Source of the DNA: Solobacterium sp.
GTDB taxonomy: Bacteria; Bacillota_I; Bacilli_A; Erysipelotrichales; Erysipelotrichaceae
Direction: 5' to 3'
Assembly (NCBI GenBank): GCA_017536845.1
Contig: JAFWCP010000064.1
Coordinates: 1-15,432, forward strand
DNA length: 15,432 bases
How positions within the stretch are numbered: the first letter of the stretch is position 1; each line of letters starts with the position of its first letter. The position numbers and the translations under genes were made by a program. The notes below the pieces were generated by a model that had not been told where the DNA came from, did no database searches, and saw only the letters and a program-made list of their open reading frames with translations. This document shows positions 4,826 to 15,432 of this stretch, one piece after another.

Positions 4826-5518
4826 TCAGTCTACACGGATCATCTGATAGCCGATGCCGATATGGGTGCGGATCAGGTCTTCCTGGCCGCTGGCTTTGAG
4901 CTTCTTGCGCAGGGAAGTCATATATACCCGCAGTGAGACGATGCTCATGGAGGCGTCACCGCCCCAGATGCGGTCGATGATGTAAGTGTGGGTTAGCACC
5001 TTGCCGACATTGCGGGCAAGCAGGCATAGCAGTTTGTATTCAATGCCGGTCAGGTGGAGTTCGGAGCCGGCGAGAAAGACAAGGTTGGACGCGTATTCAA
5101 TCCGCAGGCTGCTATTGAGGAAGACGGGGCTTTCCTGCTTGGCGGAAAGGTAGTGCATTCTTCGCTGGGCGGCGCGGATCCTTGCCGTCATTTCATCCAC
5201 CGAGAACGGCTTGGTCAGATAATCGTCAGCACCGGCATCGAGAGCTTCAATCTTGTCGCTGTTTTCGCTGCGGGCGCTGATGATGATAATCACGGCTGAA
5301 GACCAGCTGCGGATGCTGCGGATGACGTCGATGCCGTCCATATCCGGTAAGCCAAGATCCAGCAGGATCAGATCAGGGTTCTGGGAGGAACAAAGGGCCA
5401 GGGCCTGTTTTCCGTTTGCGGCAGTGAGGCAGGTATACTGGTGGATCTTCAGTGTGGCGGTGATCAGGTTCATGATGGACCGGTCATCCTCAACAATCAG
5501 AATACGGATATCATTCAT
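4826..5518 (-). CDS. kdpE: KdpE-like OmpR-family response regulator
   Basis: This 230-residue regulator has an N-terminal receiver domain (residues 1-120) with acidic pocket E10-D11-D12, phosphoacceptor Asp54 in LLDLGLPDMDG, and Lys in DDYLTKPFS. An OmpR-type winged helix follows (residues about 130-230) with LTGIEYKLLCLLARN and VYMTSLRKKL. The frame is open to 5602, but the start is ATG 5518: AAAGGAGG lies 9 nt upstream and MNDIRILIVEDD is where the receiver fold begins. It overlaps the kinase stop codon by 8 bp (ATGAATGA), a sign of translational coupling. KdpE proteins normally control the kdpFABC K+ pump. No kdpFABC is present here, and the operon instead carries ktrB and ktrA, so the likely target is this operon itself. 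Confidence 0.92.
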   Translation of the reverse strand: MNDIRILIVEDDRSIMNLITATLKIHQYTCLTAANGKQALALCSSQNPDLILLDLGLPDMDGIDVIRSIRSWSSAVIIIISARSENSDKIEALDAGADDYLTKPFSVDEMTARIRAAQRRMHYLSAKQESPVFLNSSLRIEYASNLVFLAGSELHLTGIEYKLLCLLARNVGKVLTHTYIIDRIWGGDASMSIVSLRVYMTSLRKKLKASGQEDLIRTHIGIGYQMIRVD

Positions 5519-7430
5519 ACGCTTCTGCCTCCTTTGCTGCCAGAGAGAACCGGAATACCGATCCCTGCGGGCTGTTGTCATACACTTCGATGGATGAGCC
5601 ATGGGCTTTCATGATCATGGCGCATACATTCAGGCCGATGCCCATGGAACGGGCGCTGTCGGATGCTGTTTTCGTACCGGTATAAAACAGATCGAATACA
5701 TTTTTCTTCTCTTCATCGGGAATGCCGGGCCCTTCATCAGATACCGATACATAGACCCGGCCGTCTTTCTTTTCCGCCTTGATCTCTATGGGAGAATCCT
5801 GAGGGGTATATTTGAACGCATTGCTTAACAGGTTGATCAGGACCTGGCAGATCAGGCGGGAATCCATTTCCGCAAAAAGCGGTGCATCAGGCAATGTGAC
5901 GTGAATACGGCTGTTGTGCTCGCCGATATGGCGCAGGCTTTCTTCGATGACATCTTCAATGCTTTCAAACGAGAGGTGGATATGGGGATCGGTTTCCAGC
6001 CTGGTGACGGAGAGGATGTTCTCCATCTGGTCGATCAGCCATAAGGAATCTTCCCGGATGTCGTCATAGATCTTCTGTTTTTCTTCTGAAGTGAACAGAG
6101 AACTGTTTTCAGCCAGGTTGGACGCATTGCCGTATATGGATGTCAGGGGTGTGCGCAGGTCATGGGATACGGACCGTAACAATGCAGCCCGCATATGTTC
6201 TTTCTCTGCCGCGATCTCTGCCTGCTGCCGTTCTCTGAGCATTTTCCGGTTGTCCAGAGCCATTGTAAACTCATGCACGATGGAATGGAAGACAGTTGCT
6301 TCGAATTCTGACAAAGGGCCTTCAGACATGTCGACACCGATGACGCCATAGCATTCGTGGTCCGAATGCACGCTGAGATACTGGCAGCGGCAGGAGGAAA
6401 ACTGCGGTGTCAGGGCACCGGAGAAACGGCGGTTGTCCATTGTCCACTGCACTGCTTCCTGCTCCTGTTCTGTCAGCTGGATGGAATCGGTGCCGAAACA
6501 GAACGGTTCTTCCTCTTCCTGCAGGAACAGTACGGTGCGGTTGAGCAGGCTGCTTAACTGGGTGCCGGTCACGCGGATGATATCATCACTGCTCTGGGCC
6601 TGTTCCAGCTGTTTGGAGGTATCCAGCAATACCTTGGCTTGGTAGGCATTTTCAGCGGATTTGCGGGCAATGGTTTTGACGCTTGCCGCAAGGGAGCCGG
6701 TGATTAATGCTGCTAATACGGTGACAAAGTAGGTCATCATGTATTCCGGGTCATACACCAGCAGGGTAAAACGGGGATCGATGAACAGGAAGTTGAACAA
6801 TAAGATATACAGGATGGCCGCGAAAATGCCATAGAAGGTGTGGGATGTCCAGAGCGAGGCAATCAGCACGGCCAGGATGTAGATGGTGATGATGTTGGCA
6901 TTTGAGAATCGTGAGCGGTCGATGAACAGACACAGGACAGTGGCGGCAGCCATGAAGAATAACACAAGGCCAGTATCCTTGAAGTTCAGATGGAAGCGGG
7001 TGCTGCGCCTTTTGAACAGGGAGACGTCGGCGGACAGGGAGTCGGGGATGACGTGGATATCGACATTGGGCAGGGTATCGGTCAGAACTTCGGAGAGCGG
7101 CTTGGTCGTCTGGATGAATACCGGTGTGCCGCTGCGGCCGATGAAAAGGTCCGTTGTGCCCAGGCGTCTTGCATATTCGGCGATGCTTAAGGCAATGTCA
7201 CTGCTTTCCAGACTCTGGATTTCAAAGCCGGCCTGTCTGGCAGCTTCGAGGTTTTCCCGCAGCTGGGGACGATCTTTGACATCTTCTGTCAGTCTGCCGA
7301 TGTATAACGCAACGCCGGTGCTGCCGGGAATCTGCAGGCAGCGGGAAGCGGCGTGCACCAGTCTTCTTCCTGAAGGGGAAGCAGACAGGCACAGCAGAAT
7401 AACGGGTGTCTGTTTTGTTTCATGTGCCAT
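5511..7430 (-). CDS. kdpD: KdpD-like sensor histidine kinase lacking the N-terminal KdpD domain
   Basis: A 639-residue kinase. Domains in order: universal-stress-protein (USP) domain (about 8-140), a DUF4118 four-helix membrane block (about 150-255) with FNFLFIDPRFTLLVYDPEYM, a coiled linker, a GAF-like domain (about 280-395), then HisKA with His423 in SVSHDLRTPLTSIYGNASNL and HATPase_c with NLLSNAFKYTP, DEGPGIP and GIGLNVCAMIMKAHG. E. coli KdpD is about 890 residues; the missing part is the N-terminal Walker-containing KdpD domain, since the protein starts directly at the USP domain. That domain begins SAS, then 20 residues, then GVALY, close to the SXS-X20-FTAXY motif I recall for c-di-AMP binding in S. 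aureus KdpD. AGGAGG precedes ATG 7430 by 5 nt; a GTG at 7436 overlaps that site and is less likely. The gene is 12 bp after the small membrane protein gene. Confidence 0.93.
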   Translation of the reverse strand: MAHETKQTPVILLCLSASPSGRRLVHAASRCLQIPGSTGVALYIGRLTEDVKDRPQLRENLEAARQAGFEIQSLESSDIALSIAEYARRLGTTDLFIGRSGTPVFIQTTKPLSEVLTDTLPNVDIHVIPDSLSADVSLFKRRSTRFHLNFKDTGLVLFFMAAATVLCLFIDRSRFSNANIITIYILAVLIASLWTSHTFYGIFAAILYILLFNFLFIDPRFTLLVYDPEYMMTYFVTVLAALITGSLAASVKTIARKSAENAYQAKVLLDTSKQLEQAQSSDDIIRVTGTQLSSLLNRTVLFLQEEEEPFCFGTDSIQLTEQEQEAVQWTMDNRRFSGALTPQFSSCRCQYLSVHSDHECYGVIGVDMSEGPLSEFEATVFHSIVHEFTMALDNRKMLRERQQAEIAAEKEHMRAALLRSVSHDLRTPLTSIYGNASNLAENSSLFTSEEKQKIYDDIREDSLWLIDQMENILSVTRLETDPHIHLSFESIEDVIEESLRHIGEHNSRIHVTLPDAPLFAEMDSRLICQVLINLLSNAFKYTPQDSPIEIKAEKKDGRVYVSVSDEGPGIPDEEKKNVFDLFYTGTKTASDSARSMGIGLNVCAMIMKAHGSSIEVYDNSPQGSVFRFSLAAKEAEAYE

Positions 7431-7442
7431 AAGCACCTCCTG

Positions 7443-7673
7443 TCATGCCATGTGACCGGGTCGGCAGTCCGGTGGGGAAGAGGCGGCTTCCTTCAGTTTT
7501 ATGAACTGTTTTCTGATGGGTTTCAGACGGAGGGAAATCTCCTTGCGGATATCAGGGCGTTTCCCGGGAAGCTTTTTCTTCTTCGGATAAATCATATCAA
7601 GAAGAAGCTTTTGAATAAAGAAGGTAAAGACAGTCAGGTAAATGGAGATTGTAATCAGAAGGATCGTGAACAT
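7443..7673 (-). CDS. Small single-helix membrane protein of unknown function in the K+ operon
   Basis: This 76-codon gene is flanked by 10-bp and 12-bp gaps to ktrA and kdpD, and AGGAGG lies 6 nt before ATG 7673, so translation is well supported. The product has one hydrophobic segment, MFTILLITISIYLTVFTFF, extending to about residue 27. A strongly basic stretch follows (PKKKKLPGKRPDIRK), then a mixed charged tail. The positive-inside rule predicts N-out, C-in with a cytosolic basic tail. I recognise no family. It is longer than KdpF (about 30 residues). Position suggests an accessory or regulatory subunit of the KtrAB channel, or a link between transporter and kinase; this is inference. Confidence 0.8.
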   Translation of the reverse strand: MFTILLITISIYLTVFTFFIQKLLLDMIYPKKKKLPGKRPDIRKEISLRLKPIRKQFIKLKEAASSPPDCRPGHMA

Positions 7674-7683
7674 GGTGTGCCTC

Positions 7684-8328
7684 CTAGAGATAGAAGATTC
7701 TCTGTACGTATTCATACTTGCCTAAGACAAGCATTGTCTGTCCTTCTTCCAGAAGGGTGTCATTGGTGATATTCATATTCATGCGGCCGTTTCGTACGCC
7801 GAGGATGTTCAGGCTGTATTTCCGTCTGACATCCAGCTCGCCGACTTTCTTGCCGCTCCATTTCGGCGGGACGCTGACTTCGAAGATTGAATAACCGTCG
7901 GAGAGTTCAATGTAGTTGGAAATGTTGTCGGAACTGTAGCGTATTGCGGTCCAGCTGCCTAACTGCCGTTCCGGATAGACAACTGCTTCCGCCCCGTTGC
8001 GCAGCAGGAATTTTTCCTGGGACCCGTTGGTGGCTCTTGCGATGATGTGCTTTGCGCCTAATTCATCAAGCAGGAAGACAGTTTCCAGGGAAGCCAGGAA
8101 GTCGTCGCCGATGGCAACGATGCACAGGTCGAAGTCGCTGACGCCGATGGATTCCATGAATTCCTGGTCGGTACTGTCGCCGATGCGGGCGTCATCGACC
8201 AGGGAAAGTATTTTATTCAGCCTGTCTTCTTCCTTGTCAACTGCCAGGATCTGGTGGCCGAGTTCGTGAAGTTTGCGGATGGTATAGCGGCCGAATCGTC
8301 CGGCCCCGATGACAAATACATTTTTCAT
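7684..8328 (-). CDS. ktrA: KtrA/TrkA-type RCK gating protein of a K+ uptake system
   Basis: A 214-residue cytosolic regulator that forms a ring on the membrane subunit and gates K+ uptake in response to nucleotides. The RCK_N Rossmann fold opens MKNVFVIGAGRFGRY, with GxGxxG at residues 8-13 and the acidic end of strand 2 in LAVDKEED. IGDSTDQEFM and VAIGDDFLASLETVF follow. The TrkA_C domain covers roughly residues 135-214, with FEVSVPPKWSGKKVGEL and ILGVRNG; TrkA_C domains of KtrA proteins can bind c-di-AMP. The frame is open to 8532, but ATG 8328, 7 nt after AGGAGA, is exactly where the Rossmann fold starts. The single RCK unit and about 215-residue length match KtrA/KtrC rather than the double-length E. 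coli TrkA. It begins 11 bp after ktrB. Confidence 0.92.
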   Translation of the reverse strand: MKNVFVIGAGRFGRYTIRKLHELGHQILAVDKEEDRLNKILSLVDDARIGDSTDQEFMESIGVSDFDLCIVAIGDDFLASLETVFLLDELGAKHIIARATNGSQEKFLLRNGAEAVVYPERQLGSWTAIRYSSDNISNYIELSDGYSIFEVSVPPKWSGKKVGELDVRRKYSLNILGVRNGRMNMNITNDTLLEEGQTMLVLGKYEYVQRIFYL

Positions 8329-8339
8329 AAAGGTTTCTC

Positions 8340-9680
8340 CTAACCAATGGTGATTTTTTCGCTTAAGCAGCGACTGCTGATGCGGGCCGGCGCTGCAATC
8401 AGGCCATAGGCAAGGGTCAGACCGCCTACGCGCCCGAAGAACATGAAAGACGTTAACATGAGCCTGGACCATCCCGAAAGATAGGGAGTGATGCCGGTTG
8501 TCAGGCCGACCGTCCCAAGGGCGGATGCACATTCGAACATGCCGGCGGCCAGAGGAATCTGTTCGCCCATGCAGAGGATGAAGGTCCCCAGAAGCAGCAG
8601 GGCAAGGTAGACAGCTGCCAGGGTCATGGCATGCTGGATGTCATCCCGTTCAATCCTTCGGTTGAAGCAGTTCACGTCCTTTTCCCGTTTCAGGCAGGAA
8701 GATGTTCCGGCCGCAATGGCAAAGAAGGTTGTGACCTTCATGCCGCCGGCGGTGGAGCCGGGGGCTCCGCCGATGATCATCAGGACAATTGTCAATAACA
8801 GCCCGCTCTCACTCATGGAACCATAATCGGCTGTATTGAAGCCGGCTGTGCGGGGGGTCACCGCCTGGAACAGTGACTGCAGGACACGTTGCTGAAGGGG
8901 GAAGTCGTGATACTCAAAGAACAGGAAGATCAGAAACGGGATTCCGATCAGCACCAGGTTGGTGAACAGGATGATCTTTGTCTGCAGCCGTAAGGGCCTG
9001 AAGCGGAAGGGATGTTTCAGAAGGTCCTGCCAGGTAAGGAAACCGATGCCGCCGATGATGATGAGCAGGCAGATGATCAGGTTCACGGCTGTGTTGTCCG
9101 CGTATCCGGTCAGGGAACAGAAGGGTGTTTCCGTGCCCATCAGGTCAAAGCCGGCATTGCAGAAGGCGGAAATGGAATGGAATACGGCATAGCAGATGCC
9201 TTTCAGTATGCCGAAGTCTTTGATGAATATCGGGGCCAGGGCAATGGCGCCGATGCCTTCCACGATGGCGGTGCCGGCCAGGAAGAAACAGGTGAAGCGG
9301 ATGATACCGGCAGTCTGGGGGGCACTGATGGCATCCTGCATTGTCAGTCTTCCCAGCAGGCCGATGCGCCTTCCGGTGATGACCAGGGTGAAGATGATGG
9401 CGGTGATCACGCCGATGCCGCCGATCTGGATTAATATCAGGATGACGATTTTCCCGAACAGTGACCAGTAGGTGGCTGTGTTGTATACGACCAGGCCGGT
9501 CACGCAGGCGGCGGAGGTGGAGGTAAACAGGGCATCGCCGAACGGTGTAGCATGATGGGATGCGGAGGAGATGGGCAGACACAGCAGGATGGCGCCGATC
9601 AGGATGAGAAGGAAAAAGCCCAGGATGATGGTCCGGAAGGAATTCAGATGTTTTCGTAATTTGCCTGCAATCTTTGCCAT
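8340..9680 (-). CDS. ktrB: KtrB/TrkH-type K+ channel subunit
   Basis: This 446-residue membrane protein is the ion-conducting subunit of a Ktr/Trk potassium uptake system. Four pore-loop repeats with selectivity-filter glycines are visible: SAACVTGLVV (about residue 60), SAFCNAGFDL (about 173), VTPRTAGFNT (about 280) and SALGTVGLTTG (about 395). GGAPGSTAGGMK, within the third M2 region that forms the flexible gating loop of KtrB, is also present. Length matches KtrB. AGGAGA precedes the ATG by 7 nt. It is the first gene of the operon and is followed by its RCK partner. Confidence 0.95.
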   Translation of the reverse strand: MAKIAGKLRKHLNSFRTIILGFFLLILIGAILLCLPISSASHHATPFGDALFTSTSAACVTGLVVYNTATYWSLFGKIVILILIQIGGIGVITAIIFTLVITGRRIGLLGRLTMQDAISAPQTAGIIRFTCFFLAGTAIVEGIGAIALAPIFIKDFGILKGICYAVFHSISAFCNAGFDLMGTETPFCSLTGYADNTAVNLIICLLIIIGGIGFLTWQDLLKHPFRFRPLRLQTKIILFTNLVLIGIPFLIFLFFEYHDFPLQQRVLQSLFQAVTPRTAGFNTADYGSMSESGLLLTIVLMIIGGAPGSTAGGMKVTTFFAIAAGTSSCLKREKDVNCFNRRIERDDIQHAMTLAAVYLALLLLGTFILCMGEQIPLAAGMFECASALGTVGLTTGITPYLSGWSRLMLTSFMFFGRVGGLTLAYGLIAAPARISSRCLSEKITIG

Positions 9681-11456: not shown

Positions 11457-12155
11457 ATGAAGAAAAAACTGCTCAGAGTCTGTGTGATTGATGACGAAAG
11501 AAAATATGCCGATCTGATTGCCAAGGCTGTAAGGAAAATCCTGACGGAGCAGTCAGTACCTCTTGAGGTTTCCGGGTTTACGTCATTTGCGGATGTTGAT
11601 GGGACATATGATATCTATCTTCTCGATATCCGCATGCCGGGGCTGAGCGGGTTTGAAATCTCAGAAAAACTGCGTGCTTCCGCAAAGGCTGTCATTGCTT
11701 TTGTGACCGCGGATCTTTCGCTTGTCTATCAGGCGTTCTCATACAGCCCGTATGGGTTTGTTCGTAAGGATTGTCTTGAAGAAGATCTTAAAAACCTGTT
11801 CAGCAGATATCTGAAAGAATGCCGGAAACAGATTCGATTTCGCTTTCAGTATGAACAAGTCTGTCTTCCTGTAGATCAGGTGATCCTGATCGAAGTGAGG
11901 ATGAATCAGATGACTTTGTATACGCAAAGGAAAACGTATACTTTCCGCAGTTCAATGAAACGGTTTGTGGAAGATAATCAACTGGGTCAGCAGGCTGGTT
12001 ACTATCAGCTGAATCAATCACAGATTGTCAACCTGAACCATGTACAGGAAATCCTGAAAGGAAGTGTAAAGATGGACAACGGCATGCAGGTATACCCGTC
12101 CGGGAAATATAAGGATGCATATTATCAATTACAGGAGGCGTATTATGACACTTGA
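11457..12155 (+). CDS. LytTR-family response regulator (AgrA-like), first gene of the kinase operon
   Basis: This 232-residue regulator has an N-terminal receiver domain with D12-D13-E14, phosphoacceptor Asp57 in YLLDIRMPGLSG, Thr in FVTADLSLVYQAF and Lys in GFVRKDCLEEDL. A C-terminal LytTR domain (about residues 125-228) follows, with YQLNQSQIVNLNHVQEI and a closing VYPSGKYKDAY. LytTR proteins bind imperfect direct repeats and often serve peptide quorum sensing. The start cannot be moved downstream because the receiver fold begins at residue 7. No Shine-Dalgarno precedes it and a promoter ends 6 nt before the ATG. The regulator comes before its kinase, the reverse of the S. aureus agrC-agrA order, and the genes overlap by 11 bp. 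Confidence 0.9.
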   Translation: MKKKLLRVCVIDDERKYADLIAKAVRKILTEQSVPLEVSGFTSFADVDGTYDIYLLDIRMPGLSGFEISEKLRASAKAVIAFVTADLSLVYQAFSYSPYGFVRKDCLEEDLKNLFSRYLKECRKQIRFRFQYEQVCLPVDQVILIEVRMNQMTLYTQRKTYTFRSSMKRFVEDNQLGQQAGYYQLNQSQIVNLNHVQEILKGSVKMDNGMQVYPSGKYKDAYYQLQEAYYDT

Positions 12156-13395
12156 TTTGCTGTTCAATCTTATTGAGTCGTTTCTGTACGGCATGATCTC
12201 CATGCGGATTCTGGAAGGAGGGATTGCCGCACATTACAGAAGAGGAATTTTGCTTTCGCTTGCGATTTTAACGGAAATTACAATCCTGAATATGTATCTT
12301 CCTTATGAAGGTCTGTTTGCTGTAATCTTGATACTGACAATTTACTTGTTTCTTGTCTTGGAAGCGCCATTATACAGGATCAACATTCTGAATTACGCAA
12401 TCTGTTTCAACACTGTTGCCAGCATCGGCATCGAGCTTGCAGTATTGATCTTAAAGCGGTCTGCGGGATTGTCAGTTGAACAGATAGCGGATTCAGATCA
12501 TATGCTACTCACTTTCTTTCTTTCAAGAGTGATCATAGCGCTGGTACTGTGGCTCGTTGCCGGGTATACCGGCAGACATCTGTATGATGCGGGGAAAACC
12601 GGAATGGCGTTTACCATTGCCTTTACTGCCATGTATTTTATAACAATACACTTCGAAGGACTGATTCTTTCCGAATCACCTGAAGCCGAGCTGCTTACAG
12701 TGATCAACCTGGTCATTCTGGTGTTTGTTCTTTTTGTCTATTTTGTCTTTCTGCATTTCAGCCGTACGGTCCAGATCGAAAAAGAAAATGCATTGATTGA
12801 CAGCAATATCAAGTATTATCAGCAGAATATGGAGCAGTTCCGTAAAAGGGAAGAAGAATTAAGAACCATACGTCATGATATGAAAGGCAGTCTTGTTCTG
12901 ATACAGGCGGAAATTGATAATGGCAGACCGGAAGAGGCTTCCTCTTATATTCATGAGAAACTCGGTGAAATCAATCAGGCTGTCCTGCCTGTGCGCAGCG
13001 GCAATCTGCTGGTGGATACGGTATTGTCCAATTTTCTGACCAAGGCGGAAGAGAAAGGGATTCATCCGCTGATCATTGTCACAGTTGGTACGCTTTCACC
13101 GTCACAGGACAGGGATCTTGCATTGATTCTTACAAATCTGACTGACAACATCATTGAAAATACGGACCGGGAAAAGAAGGAAGCAAGGCTGGAACTCACA
13201 AGATCAGAAAACCAGATCTGCATACGTATGTCCAACACCACGGATAATAAAGAAATCCGCTCACGGAAAGCGGATCATGAGAATCATGGTATCGGACTGA
13301 AAAGCGTGCAGCGTATCGTGGAGCAGTACCATGGCACTTCAGATATCTATCTGCAGGATGGGGTCTGTTATCAGGAGTATGTGCTGTTTATCTGA
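12145..13395 (+). CDS. AgrC-like GHKL sensor histidine kinase
   Basis: This 416-residue protein has six or seven hydrophobic helices in its first 205 residues, then a coiled linker, then a GHKL kinase. The phosphoacceptor is His244 in RTIRHDMKGSL. The ATP-binding fold shows the N box as LTNLTDNIIEN and the G box as NHGIGLKSVQRIVEQYHG. This layout fits AgrC/FsrC-type receptors for cyclic peptides. The open frame reaches 12115, but AGGAGG lies 6 nt before ATG 12145, which overlaps the regulator gene by 11 bp. Its likely ligand is the product of the agrBD genes 0.8 kb away. Its 3' end overlaps a converging gene by 8 bp, with no terminator between. Confidence 0.88.
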   Translation: MTLDLLFNLIESFLYGMISMRILEGGIAAHYRRGILLSLAILTEITILNMYLPYEGLFAVILILTIYLFLVLEAPLYRINILNYAICFNTVASIGIELAVLILKRSAGLSVEQIADSDHMLLTFFLSRVIIALVLWLVAGYTGRHLYDAGKTGMAFTIAFTAMYFITIHFEGLILSESPEAELLTVINLVILVFVLFVYFVFLHFSRTVQIEKENALIDSNIKYYQQNMEQFRKREEELRTIRHDMKGSLVLIQAEIDNGRPEEASSYIHEKLGEINQAVLPVRSGNLLVDTVLSNFLTKAEEKGIHPLIIVTVGTLSPSQDRDLALILTNLTDNIIENTDREKKEARLELTRSENQICIRMSNTTDNKEIRSRKADHENHGIGLKSVQRIVEQYHGTSDIYLQDGVCYQEYVLFI

Positions 13396-14077
13396 GCGCA
13401 TCAATACGCGCCTGGCGAAGCTGGTCTTTCCGCCGGCGGGAATAGGGCAGTTTTTCGATTCTGGTTCCGCAGTTCAGATAGACAAAGTTATCGTCAAGCT
13501 TTATAATCCGGTGGATGTTAATAATATGGGTTCTGGAAATCTGCAGGAAGTACTGCTTCGGCAGAAGATCATGAAGCTCGGCAAGAGAGTTATAGGACAG
13601 GGAGACCTGTCTTTCTTTTGTGACAAGGATACAGGTACGGTAGGAGTAATAGATATAGTATATGGAATCTACAGGGAAACCTGATCTCTTTCCTTCCACC
13701 TGCAGCGTTACTCTGGCAGTATATCTGTCAAGCTTTTTAAGCGCTGCGGATAAATTCTTTTTCAGGTCATTTTTGAGTATAAAACCGATGGATTTGTTGT
13801 TAAAAGCACTGTATACCAGTTCGCTGTGAGAAGTCACGTAAAAGACCCTGTTGTCATAGGAAGCCGGCAGTGTTTCCGAGAGCCTGATGCCGTTCTCCTT
13901 GCCGATTTCAATATCCAGAAACAGACCGTCATATGTGCTGGTCTCCAGAGCTTTTCGAAGGGCATCCGGATGTGAGAAATACTCACACGTATGTTGATGA
14001 TCGGGATCTGCTTCATTGAGTGTCTGTCTGAAAACCTGCAGGCTTTCTTTTTCGTCATCCAGATATGCAAGTTTCAT
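13388..14077 (-). CDS. Second LytTR-family response regulator, divergent from agrB
   Basis: This 229-residue regulator has a receiver domain with D7-D8-E9, phosphoacceptor Asp55 in LFLDIEIGKENG, Thr in YVTSHSELVYSAF and Lys in GFILKNDLKKNL. A LytTR domain (about residues 125-225) follows, with FLQISRTHIINIHRII and a basic C-terminus rich in Arg. All phosphorylation residues are present. GGAGGTGAT lies 5 nt before the ATG. No kinase gene is next to it in operon order, so it must share the AgrC-like kinase or use one elsewhere. It is clearly diverged from the regulator at 11457, not a recent duplicate. Its stop overlaps the kinase gene's stop by 8 bp in convergent orientation. Confidence 0.9.
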   Translation of the reverse strand: MKLAYLDDEKESLQVFRQTLNEADPDHQHTCEYFSHPDALRKALETSTYDGLFLDIEIGKENGIRLSETLPASYDNRVFYVTSHSELVYSAFNNKSIGFILKNDLKKNLSAALKKLDRYTARVTLQVEGKRSGFPVDSIYYIYYSYRTCILVTKERQVSLSYNSLAELHDLLPKQYFLQISRTHIINIHRIIKLDDNFVYLNCGTRIEKLPYSRRRKDQLRQARIDALR

Positions 14078-14098
14078 GAGATCACCTCCGTTATCAAC

Positions 14099-14128
14099 AT
14101 TCTAAGGCATTGATTGAACATGATACAA
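14099..14128 (-). promoter_or_regulatory. Predicted promoter of the second LytTR regulator
   Basis: Minus strand: -35 TTGTAT (14128-14123), 18-bp spacer, -10 TAGAAT (14104-14099). The start site would be near 14092, just upstream of the ribosome binding site. The -35 lies inside the phased GTT repeats. Confidence 0.45.
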
Positions 14129-14142
14129 CGTGAATCAACTGA
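14113..14142 (-). repeat. Three 10-bp phased GTT repeats, candidate LytTR operator
   Basis: The minus strand reads TCAGTTGATT, CACGTTGTAT, CATGTTCAAT as three contiguous 10-mers, with GTT recurring at exactly 10-bp steps. The first copy begins TCAGTTGAT, which fits the LytTR half-site consensus as I recall it, [TA][AC][CA]GTTN[AG][TG]. Copies 1 and 3 are 20 bp apart, about two helical turns, close to known LytTR direct-repeat spacing. It lies between the second regulator and agrB. Confidence 0.45.
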
Positions 14143-14191
14143 ATGGTTATTTTTATGAACGAATGCAGGACATGTCACAGAAACAGATTGG

Positions 14192-14785
14192 ATGATCACG
14201 CATTCCGCGACATACAGGAAGCGGATCTTGTATGATCTGTATATGAAGTGGAAAAGAAATCTTGAACTGGCAGCAGAAGAACTGAATATCAATATGGAAT
14301 GTGTATGGTTCGGGCTGAAAACGGAAGGACTGTTTCTGACAGAGAGTGTGGTTTATCTCTTTTTGTTCGCATGGTTTGGATATCTGTTGAATGGATTAGT
14401 CTTTCTGGCAGGATTTTCCTTCCTGCGGGTATACTGCGGCGGATATCATTGTTCCTCTCGATTATCCTGCTTCCTGTCCGGCTTGTGTATTTGTCTTTGC
14501 ATCTGTGTTCTGGATCAATATATTCCCCTTCATATTCTGCAGGTGCTGATGATCGTAAGCATTGTTTATCTGTGTGTTGTATGTCCGGCAGAAAATGACA
14601 GATACAGACTGACAGAAGCAGACAGAATTGTGTTCCGAAAGACAGCTCAGTTGAGAGTGGTGGTTCTGACAGGATTATGTGTGATCTCATCAATAAGGGT
14701 TCCGGCAGCCTATGCGTTGATATGGACAGCAGGACTCTGCTTTCTCCAAGGAAAGAAAGGAGGTGAAGAGAATGACAGTAAGTAA
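14192..14785 (+). CDS. agrB: AgrB-like autoinducer peptide processing protease/exporter
   Basis: This 197-residue membrane cysteine endopeptidase removes the C-terminal tail of the AgrD precursor and helps form the cyclic signal. FLRVYCGGYHCSSRLSCFLSG contains the catalytic pair His86 and Cys93, seven residues apart as in S. aureus AgrB (His77, Cys84). CPAENDRYRLTEADRIVFRK near residue 130 matches the conserved AgrB segment after the middle helices. Four to six hydrophobic helices are visible. The start is uncertain: ATG 14192 has no Shine-Dalgarno, while an in-frame TTG at 14228 has AGGAAG 6 nt upstream and gives an N-terminus of more usual length. The 3' end overlaps agrD by 14 bp. Confidence 0.88.
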   Translation: MITHSATYRKRILYDLYMKWKRNLELAAEELNINMECVWFGLKTEGLFLTESVVYLFLFAWFGYLLNGLVFLAGFSFLRVYCGGYHCSSRLSCFLSGLCICLCICVLDQYIPLHILQVLMIVSIVYLCVVCPAENDRYRLTEADRIVFRKTAQLRVVVLTGLCVISSIRVPAAYALIWTAGLCFLQGKKGGEENDSK

Positions 14786-14927
14786 GCTGATTGTGCTGTT
14801 TGCATACAGGATTTCATACCTTGCCGCAAACAGACCGTCGTTCAAGCTGACATATCAGGAACAACTGCCTGATGCCGTAAAGAAGCTGAAAGAGATAAGG
14901 ATAAATCCCACTCAGTCAGAAAAATGA
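14772..14927 (+). CDS. agrD: AgrD-like autoinducer precursor without cysteine
   Basis: This 51-residue ORF has an excellent site (AAAGGAGGTGA, 5 nt before ATG) located inside the end of agrB, the usual agrB-agrD arrangement. The product has the three AgrD parts. They are an N-terminal amphipathic membrane-binding helix (MTVSKLIVLFAYRISYLAA), a central core (NRPSFKLTY), and a charged C-terminal recognition tail (QEQLPDAVKKLKEIR) resembling the E-x-P-x-x-L tail of staphylococcal AgrD. There is no Cys, so thiolactone formation is impossible. Ser23 is the best ring-forming residue, which would give a lactone of Ser23 to about Thr27 or Tyr28; serine lactones are known for the S. intermedius signal and for enterococcal GBAP. 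Identity rests on position, size and layout. It is too short for routine gene callers and easily missed. Confidence 0.75.
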   Translation: MTVSKLIVLFAYRISYLAANRPSFKLTYQEQLPDAVKKLKEIRINPTQSEK

Positions 14928-15228
14928 ACGTTCAGTCGAAATGCGTTGCAGCAGCGGTGAAACCTGAATAGACTGAAGGTGCAAGGCAGAACAGAGATTC
15001 AGCTATGGCTATATCCGAGATAAGCATACTCCATACATCCTGCGCAGGATGCTCTGCCTGTATAAAAGAAAAAGCCTGCGAATTCAAATGGCCAATGAAC
15101 AATCGCAGTGCTCACCAAACATCGAAAGGGTACCACAGTAAAGGTTCTTTCGGGATGCGGGTACATCCGGAAATGTCCCGGAAATATCCGCAGGAATTCT
15201 CATGATCATTAAATTAAGGAGGGCTAAA
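14928..15228 (+). other. Intergenic region of about 300 bp rich in inverted repeats, possible structured RNA
   Basis: No convincing gene lies between agrD and the secreted-protein start. Visible structure: TTCAGTC/GACTGAA (14931-14937, 14971-14977); a perfect 16-bp palindrome CATCCTGCGCAGGATG (15036-15051); CGAAAG/CTTTCG (15123-15128, 15147-15152); TGCGG/CCGCA (15156-15160, 15188-15192). Inside the last is an 11-bp tandem repeat, CCGGAAATGTC then CCGGAAATATC (15167-15188). TATAAA occurs at 15061 without a good -35. No known riboswitch class was recognised. It could be a long 5' leader, a small RNA, or degraded coding sequence. Confidence 0.4.
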
Positions 15229-15249
15229 ATGAAAAATAATGGATTTTAG
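15229..15249 (+). other. Six-codon ORF MKNNGF ending in TAG, with a strong ribosome binding site
   Basis: TTAAGGAGGG sits 6-7 nt before ATG 15229, the best ribosome binding site in this stretch. Translation gives MKNNGF and then TAG at 15247. After the stop, the same frame continues directly into a signal peptide. It is either a nonsense mutation in the first codons of the secreted protein, a leader peptide coupled to the GTG at 15253, or a readthrough site. Confidence 0.5.
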
Positions 15250-15252
15250 AGA

Positions 15253-15432
15253 GTGAAGCATGCGACAGCAGTAAGTATGATGAGTGCAGTACTGTTTGCC
15301 AATGGATTGACTGCTGTCAGCGCAATCGATGGTCCGTCAGATACGCCCAGGTATCCGGGCTGGACAGATCCCACTGAGGAGGATGAAGCCTTAAGAGAAG
15401 AATATCTGAGACAGGATCAGGCAGTTCAGGCA
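15253..15432 (+). CDS. Secreted protein of unknown function, N-terminus only, cut by window edge
   Basis: The frame is open from the TAG at 15247 to the window end. From GTG 15253 it encodes a Sec signal peptide: a short basic start (MKHAT when GTG initiates), a hydrophobic core AVSMMSAVLFANGL, and a signal peptidase site TAVSA before IDGPSD. The mature start is proline- and acid-rich (SDTPRYPGWTDPTEEDEALREEYLRQ). No family is recognised. GTG 15253 has only a weak AGAG in front; the strong site belongs to ATG 15229, six codons before an in-frame TAG. Position downstream of agrBD suggests a target of the quorum-sensing system, by inference. It may be a pseudogene if the TAG is a true nonsense mutation. 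Confidence 0.5.
   Translation, partial: MKHATAVSMMSAVLFANGLTAVSAIDGPSDTPRYPGWTDPTEEDEALREEYLRQDQAVQA

Follow-up and report, generated by a model that had tools for sequence, protein, structure and literature searches.

An agr-type quorum-sensing cassette with a Cys-less AgrD and a probable Ser-closed lactone signal in Solobacterium

The window, by which we mean the whole 15,432-nucleotide stretch of DNA analysed here, comes from Solobacterium, a member of the Erysipelotrichaceae, and carries five signalling genes in the order regulator 1, kinase, inverted regulator 2, agrB and agrD, with the following features.

11457..12155, + strand: response regulator 1, AgrA-like (receiver plus LytTR; Pfam Response_reg 40.9 bits, LytTR 42.5 bits; matched in relatives)
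12115..13395, + strand: AgrC-like histidine kinase with a GHKL ATPase and a hydrophobic N-terminal half (HATPase_c_5 61.7 bits; hydropathy; matched in relatives)
13388..14077, - strand: response regulator 2 (receiver plus LytTR), divergent from agrB (Pfam LytTR 47.6 bits, Response_reg 34.7 bits; matched in relatives)
14078..14227, no strand: divergent promoter region between regulator 2 and agrB, placed by position only
14228..14785, + strand: agrB, AgrB-family membrane peptidase (longest ORF from ATG 14192: 14192-14785, 197 aa; PF04647; CGGYH-x6-C; ribosome-site context)
14757..14771, + strand: agrD ribosome-binding site region within the 3' end of agrB (strong; AGGAGGTGA just upstream, AAGGAGGTGAAGAGA before ATG 14772)
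14772..14927, + strand: agrD, 51-residue signal precursor without Cys (relatives-only profile; TIGR04223 score; alignments A1 and A2)
14838..14852, + strand: codons of the predicted ring Ser23-Phe-Lys-Leu-Thr27 (register in A1 and A2 and the C. thermocellum lactone; the ring itself predicted)

The agrB reading frame scores 78.5 bits on the Pfam AgrB family PF04647, whose cut-off is 23, and encodes an AgrB-family membrane protein with the CGGYH-x6-C motif that is invariant across alignment A3 of subfamily AgrBs. His and Cys are the catalytic residues of this family; here they are His86 and Cys93 (numbered from 14192), seven residues apart as the original prediction stated, and invariant in all eight aligned subfamily AgrBs including that of the window. 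Translation may begin at TTG 14228, later than ATG 14192, as suggested by an AGGAAG six bases 5' of this TTG and by the AgrBs of relatives, which start near it (L142 and L145) or at the same point (P0003). Searching a large protein database with the AgrB sequence returned two matches, the window AgrB itself and the C-terminally shortened P0003. The latter is 92% identical and spans window positions 14228-14608 before jumping to sequence that matches 14909-15020, so that it seems, from this alignment, to have lost about 300 bases that comprise the 3' part of agrB and almost the whole of agrD. A PDB sequence search with AgrB gave no match at E 1 or better among 177635 distinct sequences, and a scan of the genome contigs with an AgrB pattern gave 33 pattern matches, none of them a relative.

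The downstream gene, agrD, runs for 51 codons from ATG 14772 to a stop codon ending at 14927 and overlaps agrB by 14 bases. Among the 238 ORFs of the window, this one came first with a hidden Markov model built from seven relatives without the window (E 1.4e-12; runner-up 1.3) and again with a model of 14 AgrDs outside the subfamily (E 5.2e-6; runner-up 0.38), identifying it as the AgrD precursor beside agrB and, with the PF04647 match, bearing out the agr-type pair that had been proposed. A second agrD in the window was considered and rejected, since neither AgrD profile gave any other ORF an E below 0.38. On the NCBIfam AgrD model TIGR04223 the precursor reaches 17.7 bits over the full model and narrowly misses the curated cut-off of 19, which is passed by its subfamily relatives in G264 (33.1 bits), G276 (contig C252; 23.5 bits) and G267 (22.2 bits). 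The large protein database held a single match to AgrD, P0001, from another contig and differing at 1 of 51 residues. Cys is absent from all 51 residues, as originally claimed, and the precursor lacks the Cys of a staphylococcal-type thiolactone autoinducing peptide (AIP). It has instead the layout of a Ser-lactone AIP, in which Ser replaces Cys at the ring position: Ser23, which had been picked out as the ring residue, does align with the Ser/Thr/Cys ring column.

The rest of the cassette fits such a pair, with a GHKL kinase that has a polytopic N-terminus and two LytTR regulators at the locus, not one. Regulator 2 scores only 24.9 bits on the NCBIfam AgrA model, far under its cut-off of 400. 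When regulators and kinases of relatives were matched to the window proteins by phmmer, the five-gene arrangement was complete in four of the ten fetched regions (L142, L144, L145 and L147, the regulator 1 of L144 being a shorter ORF), and at L146 and L149 it matches the window up to the contig ends. At L150, regulator 1, the kinase, a frame-broken agrB and agrD are present and regulator 2 was not detected; at L143 the contig ends next to agrB. No regulators were found by phmmer in the fetched region of L148, nor in that of L151, which belongs to a different branch. No shared site was recognised by eye in the divergent promoter region of the window and six relatives, and Rfam gave no match at gathering scores over the whole window.

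At 15229-15432 (+), downstream of agrD, an ATG with a strong ribosome site opens a frame that meets an in-frame TAG after six codons; past the TAG it resembles a secretion signal and continues to the window end (15432), and the TAG may be a mutation, an error or bypassed by a restart at GTG 15253. At 4826-9680 (-) a two-component pair that we read as KdpDE-like (DUF4118, HisKA, HATPase; Response_reg, Trans_reg_C) adjoins TrkA and TrkH genes, and the kinase and TrkH also lie close together in G003, G005, G006, G008 and G011. The KdpD-like kinase shares up to 54% identity with Solobacterium MAGs and TrkH at most 64% across 70 Solobacterium genomes, and the dihydroxyacetone kinase (Dak1) up to 93% with ruminant-gut MAGs labelled Lachnospiraceae, Solobacterium and others. 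These identities relate the window to the Solobacterium group, with no genome of the set standing close to it.

When the 315 genomes of the order were searched with AgrB and with AgrD alignment A2 (11 rows, including the window and some near-copies), five of them yielded nine strong AgrD loci, all at E <= 1.3e-18, with the next match at 1.1e-5; seven of the nine are A2 rows or near-copies, and the G267 locus and the locus on contig C75 of G276 are not A2 rows. The Ser members share A-x-N-x-P-S-x-K-x-x-[YF]-Q-E-x-[ML]-P with small departures. Ser occupies the ring position in seven of these loci and Thr in two (G254 C17 and G276 C75), and P0010 is a third Thr variant. The ring Ser is not strictly invariant across the nine loci. 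A Cys-type agrD beside a related agrB, which would have spoken against the original prediction, occurs at none of the nine, and the 51-codon ORF is kept beside related agrB genes with the apparent exception of P0003. The AgrBs of eight subfamily loci and the window form one clade (nine rows; support 100/100 and 100/99 in two trees), the broken AgrB of G267 having been left out. P0014, the subfamily AgrD of L150 in a Solobacterium sp. MAG, is already named 'cyclic lactone autoinducer peptide' in public records. Five of the nine loci lie in one 4.0 Mb assembly, G276 (contigs C39, C51, C75, C217 and C252), four of them Ser and one Thr, with differing ring sequences; this multiplicity may reflect paralogous signals or a mixed MAG.

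Counted from the ring Ser, the window precursor has its ring end at +4, Tyr at +5 and Pro at +10, the same register as in Clostridium thermocellum Clo1313_2818 (S25, F29, Y30, P35), whose Ser25-Phe29 lactone was confirmed in culture supernatant by targeted LC-MS/MS (PMC5322536). Because of this match, we predict SFKLT as the ring and place Tyr28 in the portion that is cleaved off. Of the two cores originally offered, SFKLT thus stands and SFKLTY was rejected, since the Tyr of the C. thermocellum peptide lies just past its ring (PMC5322536); Tyr28 also falls in the post-ring Tyr/Phe/Trp/His alignment column. Lys25 was dropped as a nucleophile even though Pro22, Lys25 and Pro33 are invariant in 11 of the 11 A2 rows, as it would give a ring of three residues only. 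In all nine Ser-type rows of A2, Asn-x-Pro precedes the ring Ser, and because Ala-Ala precedes Asn-Arg-Pro in the window and Pro22 is invariant, we propose Asn-Arg-Pro as a tail, which by analogy would also guard the lactone from an O-to-N shift.

Judged from gene content, conservation and register, the locus probably holds all parts of an agr-type quorum-sensing cassette, with a Ser-closed lactone as the autoinducing peptide. We propose that AgrB would bind the 51-residue AgrD at the membrane and that Cys93 would cleave it after Thr27, whereupon the Ser23 hydroxyl would attack the resulting acyl-enzyme to give the five-residue ring SFKLT. A second cleavage in the leader, plausibly after Ala18-Ala19 (the cut site being a guess), would leave the Asn-Arg-Pro tail, and the mature signal would be the octapeptide NRP(SFKLT). 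The AgrC-like kinase would then sense the peptide and phosphorylate one LytTR regulator or both, and the agrBD promoter may be a target of one of them.

A precursor without Cys could also mean that AgrB only cuts, the nucleophile having gone with the Cys, and that the product is a linear pheromone. In each of the 60 AgrDs that could be read in the order, however, Ser, Thr or Cys was assignable (a weaker argument, as the assignment sought these residues), Ser lactones are proven elsewhere, and the linear form of the C. thermocellum peptide was without effect (PMC5322536), which together make a linear signal very unlikely. A ring might also form and then change. Tail-less thiolactone and lactone pentamers rearrange into homodetic rings, and a Listeria lactone analogue was 36% hydrolysed and 48% rearranged after 22 h, both according to PMC11297923; because a tail-less lactone hydrolyses and rearranges, the lasting molecule here could be a homodetic cyclic peptide, formed as the Ser lactone shifts from O to N into a head-to-tail ring. 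We think this outcome very unlikely, given that Pro stands before the ring position in 11 of 11 A2 rows and Asn-x-Pro in the nine Ser-type rows, which suggests that the tail is kept, and a kept tail would block the shift.

Decay of the locus, with loss of the Cys and of signal production from the precursor, could draw on P0003, without the end of agrB and seemingly without agrD, and on the frame-broken agrB of L150. Both window genes are nevertheless intact, the nearly identical AgrD P0001 exists on another contig, and the AgrD core is conserved among members whose AgrBs share just 25-33% identity with the window AgrB, all of which leaves decay extremely improbable.

Across the 315 genomes of the order, TIGR04223 gave 63 matches in 45 genomes, with 34 Ser, 22 Cys and 4 Thr at the ring position and three matches without assignment, all weak (L250, L251 and L255; E 0.004 to 0.01); this set misses both subfamily Thr loci, G270 and three G276 Ser loci. 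To assign the ring residue, a script took the fifth position before a conserved [aromatic, Gly, His or similar][Gln/Glu/Lys]-x-x-Pro site, and its calls were then corrected by eye (by-eye calls: L191, L198, L203, L230, L234 and L176, L179, L180, L186, L236, L217), and the Ser count includes L201 (Ser then Cys) and six loci with a Cys-ended ring. The AgrD of L198 is interrupted by a stop. At L191, L232, L233, L240, L241 and L253 the fifth ring residue is Cys, and Ser holds the position usual for the nucleophile. Of the 60 readable AgrDs in the order, 34 have a ring Ser, more than have any other residue, and because of this a Cys-less ring is not unusual here; the original view of the signal as unusual finds no support, the more so as Ser lactones are known in other species. 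Outside the order, in a sample of the class (46 rows, less 14 rows of the window's order and G537), Cys leads: 31 loci read by eye gave 22 Cys, 5 Ser, 2 unclear between Ser and Thr and 2 without assignment. Among 50 distinct AgrB-like genes (L085-L141), 34 have no AgrD-like ORF above 25 bits within 500 bases, by a profile built from the AgrDs found there, and many AgrD-less AgrB-like genes carry a GGWH or GGLH motif; either they have a different substrate or the profile missed one.

The AgrBs divide along the same line as the ring residues. In a tree of 38 pairs including the window, restricted to same-strand AgrBs within 300 bases of AgrD (29 of 66 loci dropped, including 14 of 22 Cys loci), one branch separates 8 Cys-type pairs from 24 Ser-type and 6 Thr-type pairs; its support is 95/88, and it is present in 93% of 200 bootstrap trees. 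His-x6-Cys is found in all 38 AgrBs. A laxer tree of 44 rows, with AgrBs within 1 kb on either strand, separates 11 Cys and 1 Ser (L244) from 28 Ser and 4 Thr (support 83/81). Thr needs three changes on the 38-row tree, two of them forced by well-supported branches.

Thr-type AgrDs lie directly beside AgrB at L147:4744-4875, L113:1773-1940, L184:1492-1635, L236:995-1117, L239:1004-1123 and L254:977-1111. The rings of the six precursors read TLKTA twice, TWGGL, TWFGV, TWFGE and TWIWM. In four of them (L184, L236, L239 and L254) the Thr is preceded, at a distance of three residues, by a Ser through which a larger ring could close; such a Ser is missing from L147 and L113. In the Ser-type sisters of L254 (L235, L242 and L248), Ser aligns with the Thr of L254, which counts for the Thr reading. 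We tentatively suggest, as a possibility at rather less than even likelihood, that the order holds an AgrB branch committed to hydroxyl ring closure, with Ser and about three switches to Thr (TLKTA, TWGGL/TWFGE and TWIWM/TWFGV), some members making Thr-closed lactones, and that the window is a Ser member of a sub-branch whose Thr sister pair shares the five-gene, two-LytTR cassette.

Lactones through Ser are usually shown as exceptions to thiolactones, yet they would be the commonest type among the AgrDs read in this order, which reverses the premise. With the AgrBs themselves divided into a Cys-type and a Ser- and Thr-type group, naturally occurring pairs of this order could serve to ask how AgrB chooses between thiol and hydroxyl. 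We found no Thr-closed AgrD in literature titles or abstract openings, a coverage that mostly leaves subscription papers outside; if true, Thr lactones in the Thr members would be a ring chemistry without mention there. A literature search for AgrD in Erysipelotrichaceae returned nothing beyond an airway-microbiome review, and agrA/agrB have been reported from 199 rumen bacterial genomes (PMC10838665). Ser-closed agr signals are already known; what deserves following are the Thr members, together with the AgrB branch that unites Ser and Thr types.

Among known systems, C. thermocellum Clo1313_2818 shares with the window, whose ring is predicted, a Ser ring residue, a five-residue lactone, a Tyr right after the ring and a Pro ten residues after Ser, but it lies outside an apparent agr operon and is predicted to be tail-less, whereas the window has Asn-Arg-Pro before Ser (PMC5322536). 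P0014 at L150 belongs to the same AgrD subfamily (NSPSRKGMYQEKMP) and adjoins regulator 1 and the kinase, but differs in its frame-broken agrB and in that regulator 2 was not detected. According to PMC12312760 and PMC3673130, the agr system of Staphylococcus pseudintermedius/intermedius likewise has Ser in place of Cys and a lactone AIP (predicted for the window), but there the Ser type is the staphylococcal exception, whereas in the window's order it is the commonest type, and the window differs further in its second, inverted LytTR regulator and in a gene order that is not agrBDCA. The Fsr/GBAP system of Enterococcus faecalis, described in the same sources (PMC12312760, PMC3673130), resembles the window in having a Ser lactone, again predicted for the window, made by an AgrB homologue, but its ring has nine residues in an 11-residue peptide and fsrD lies inside fsrB in another frame.
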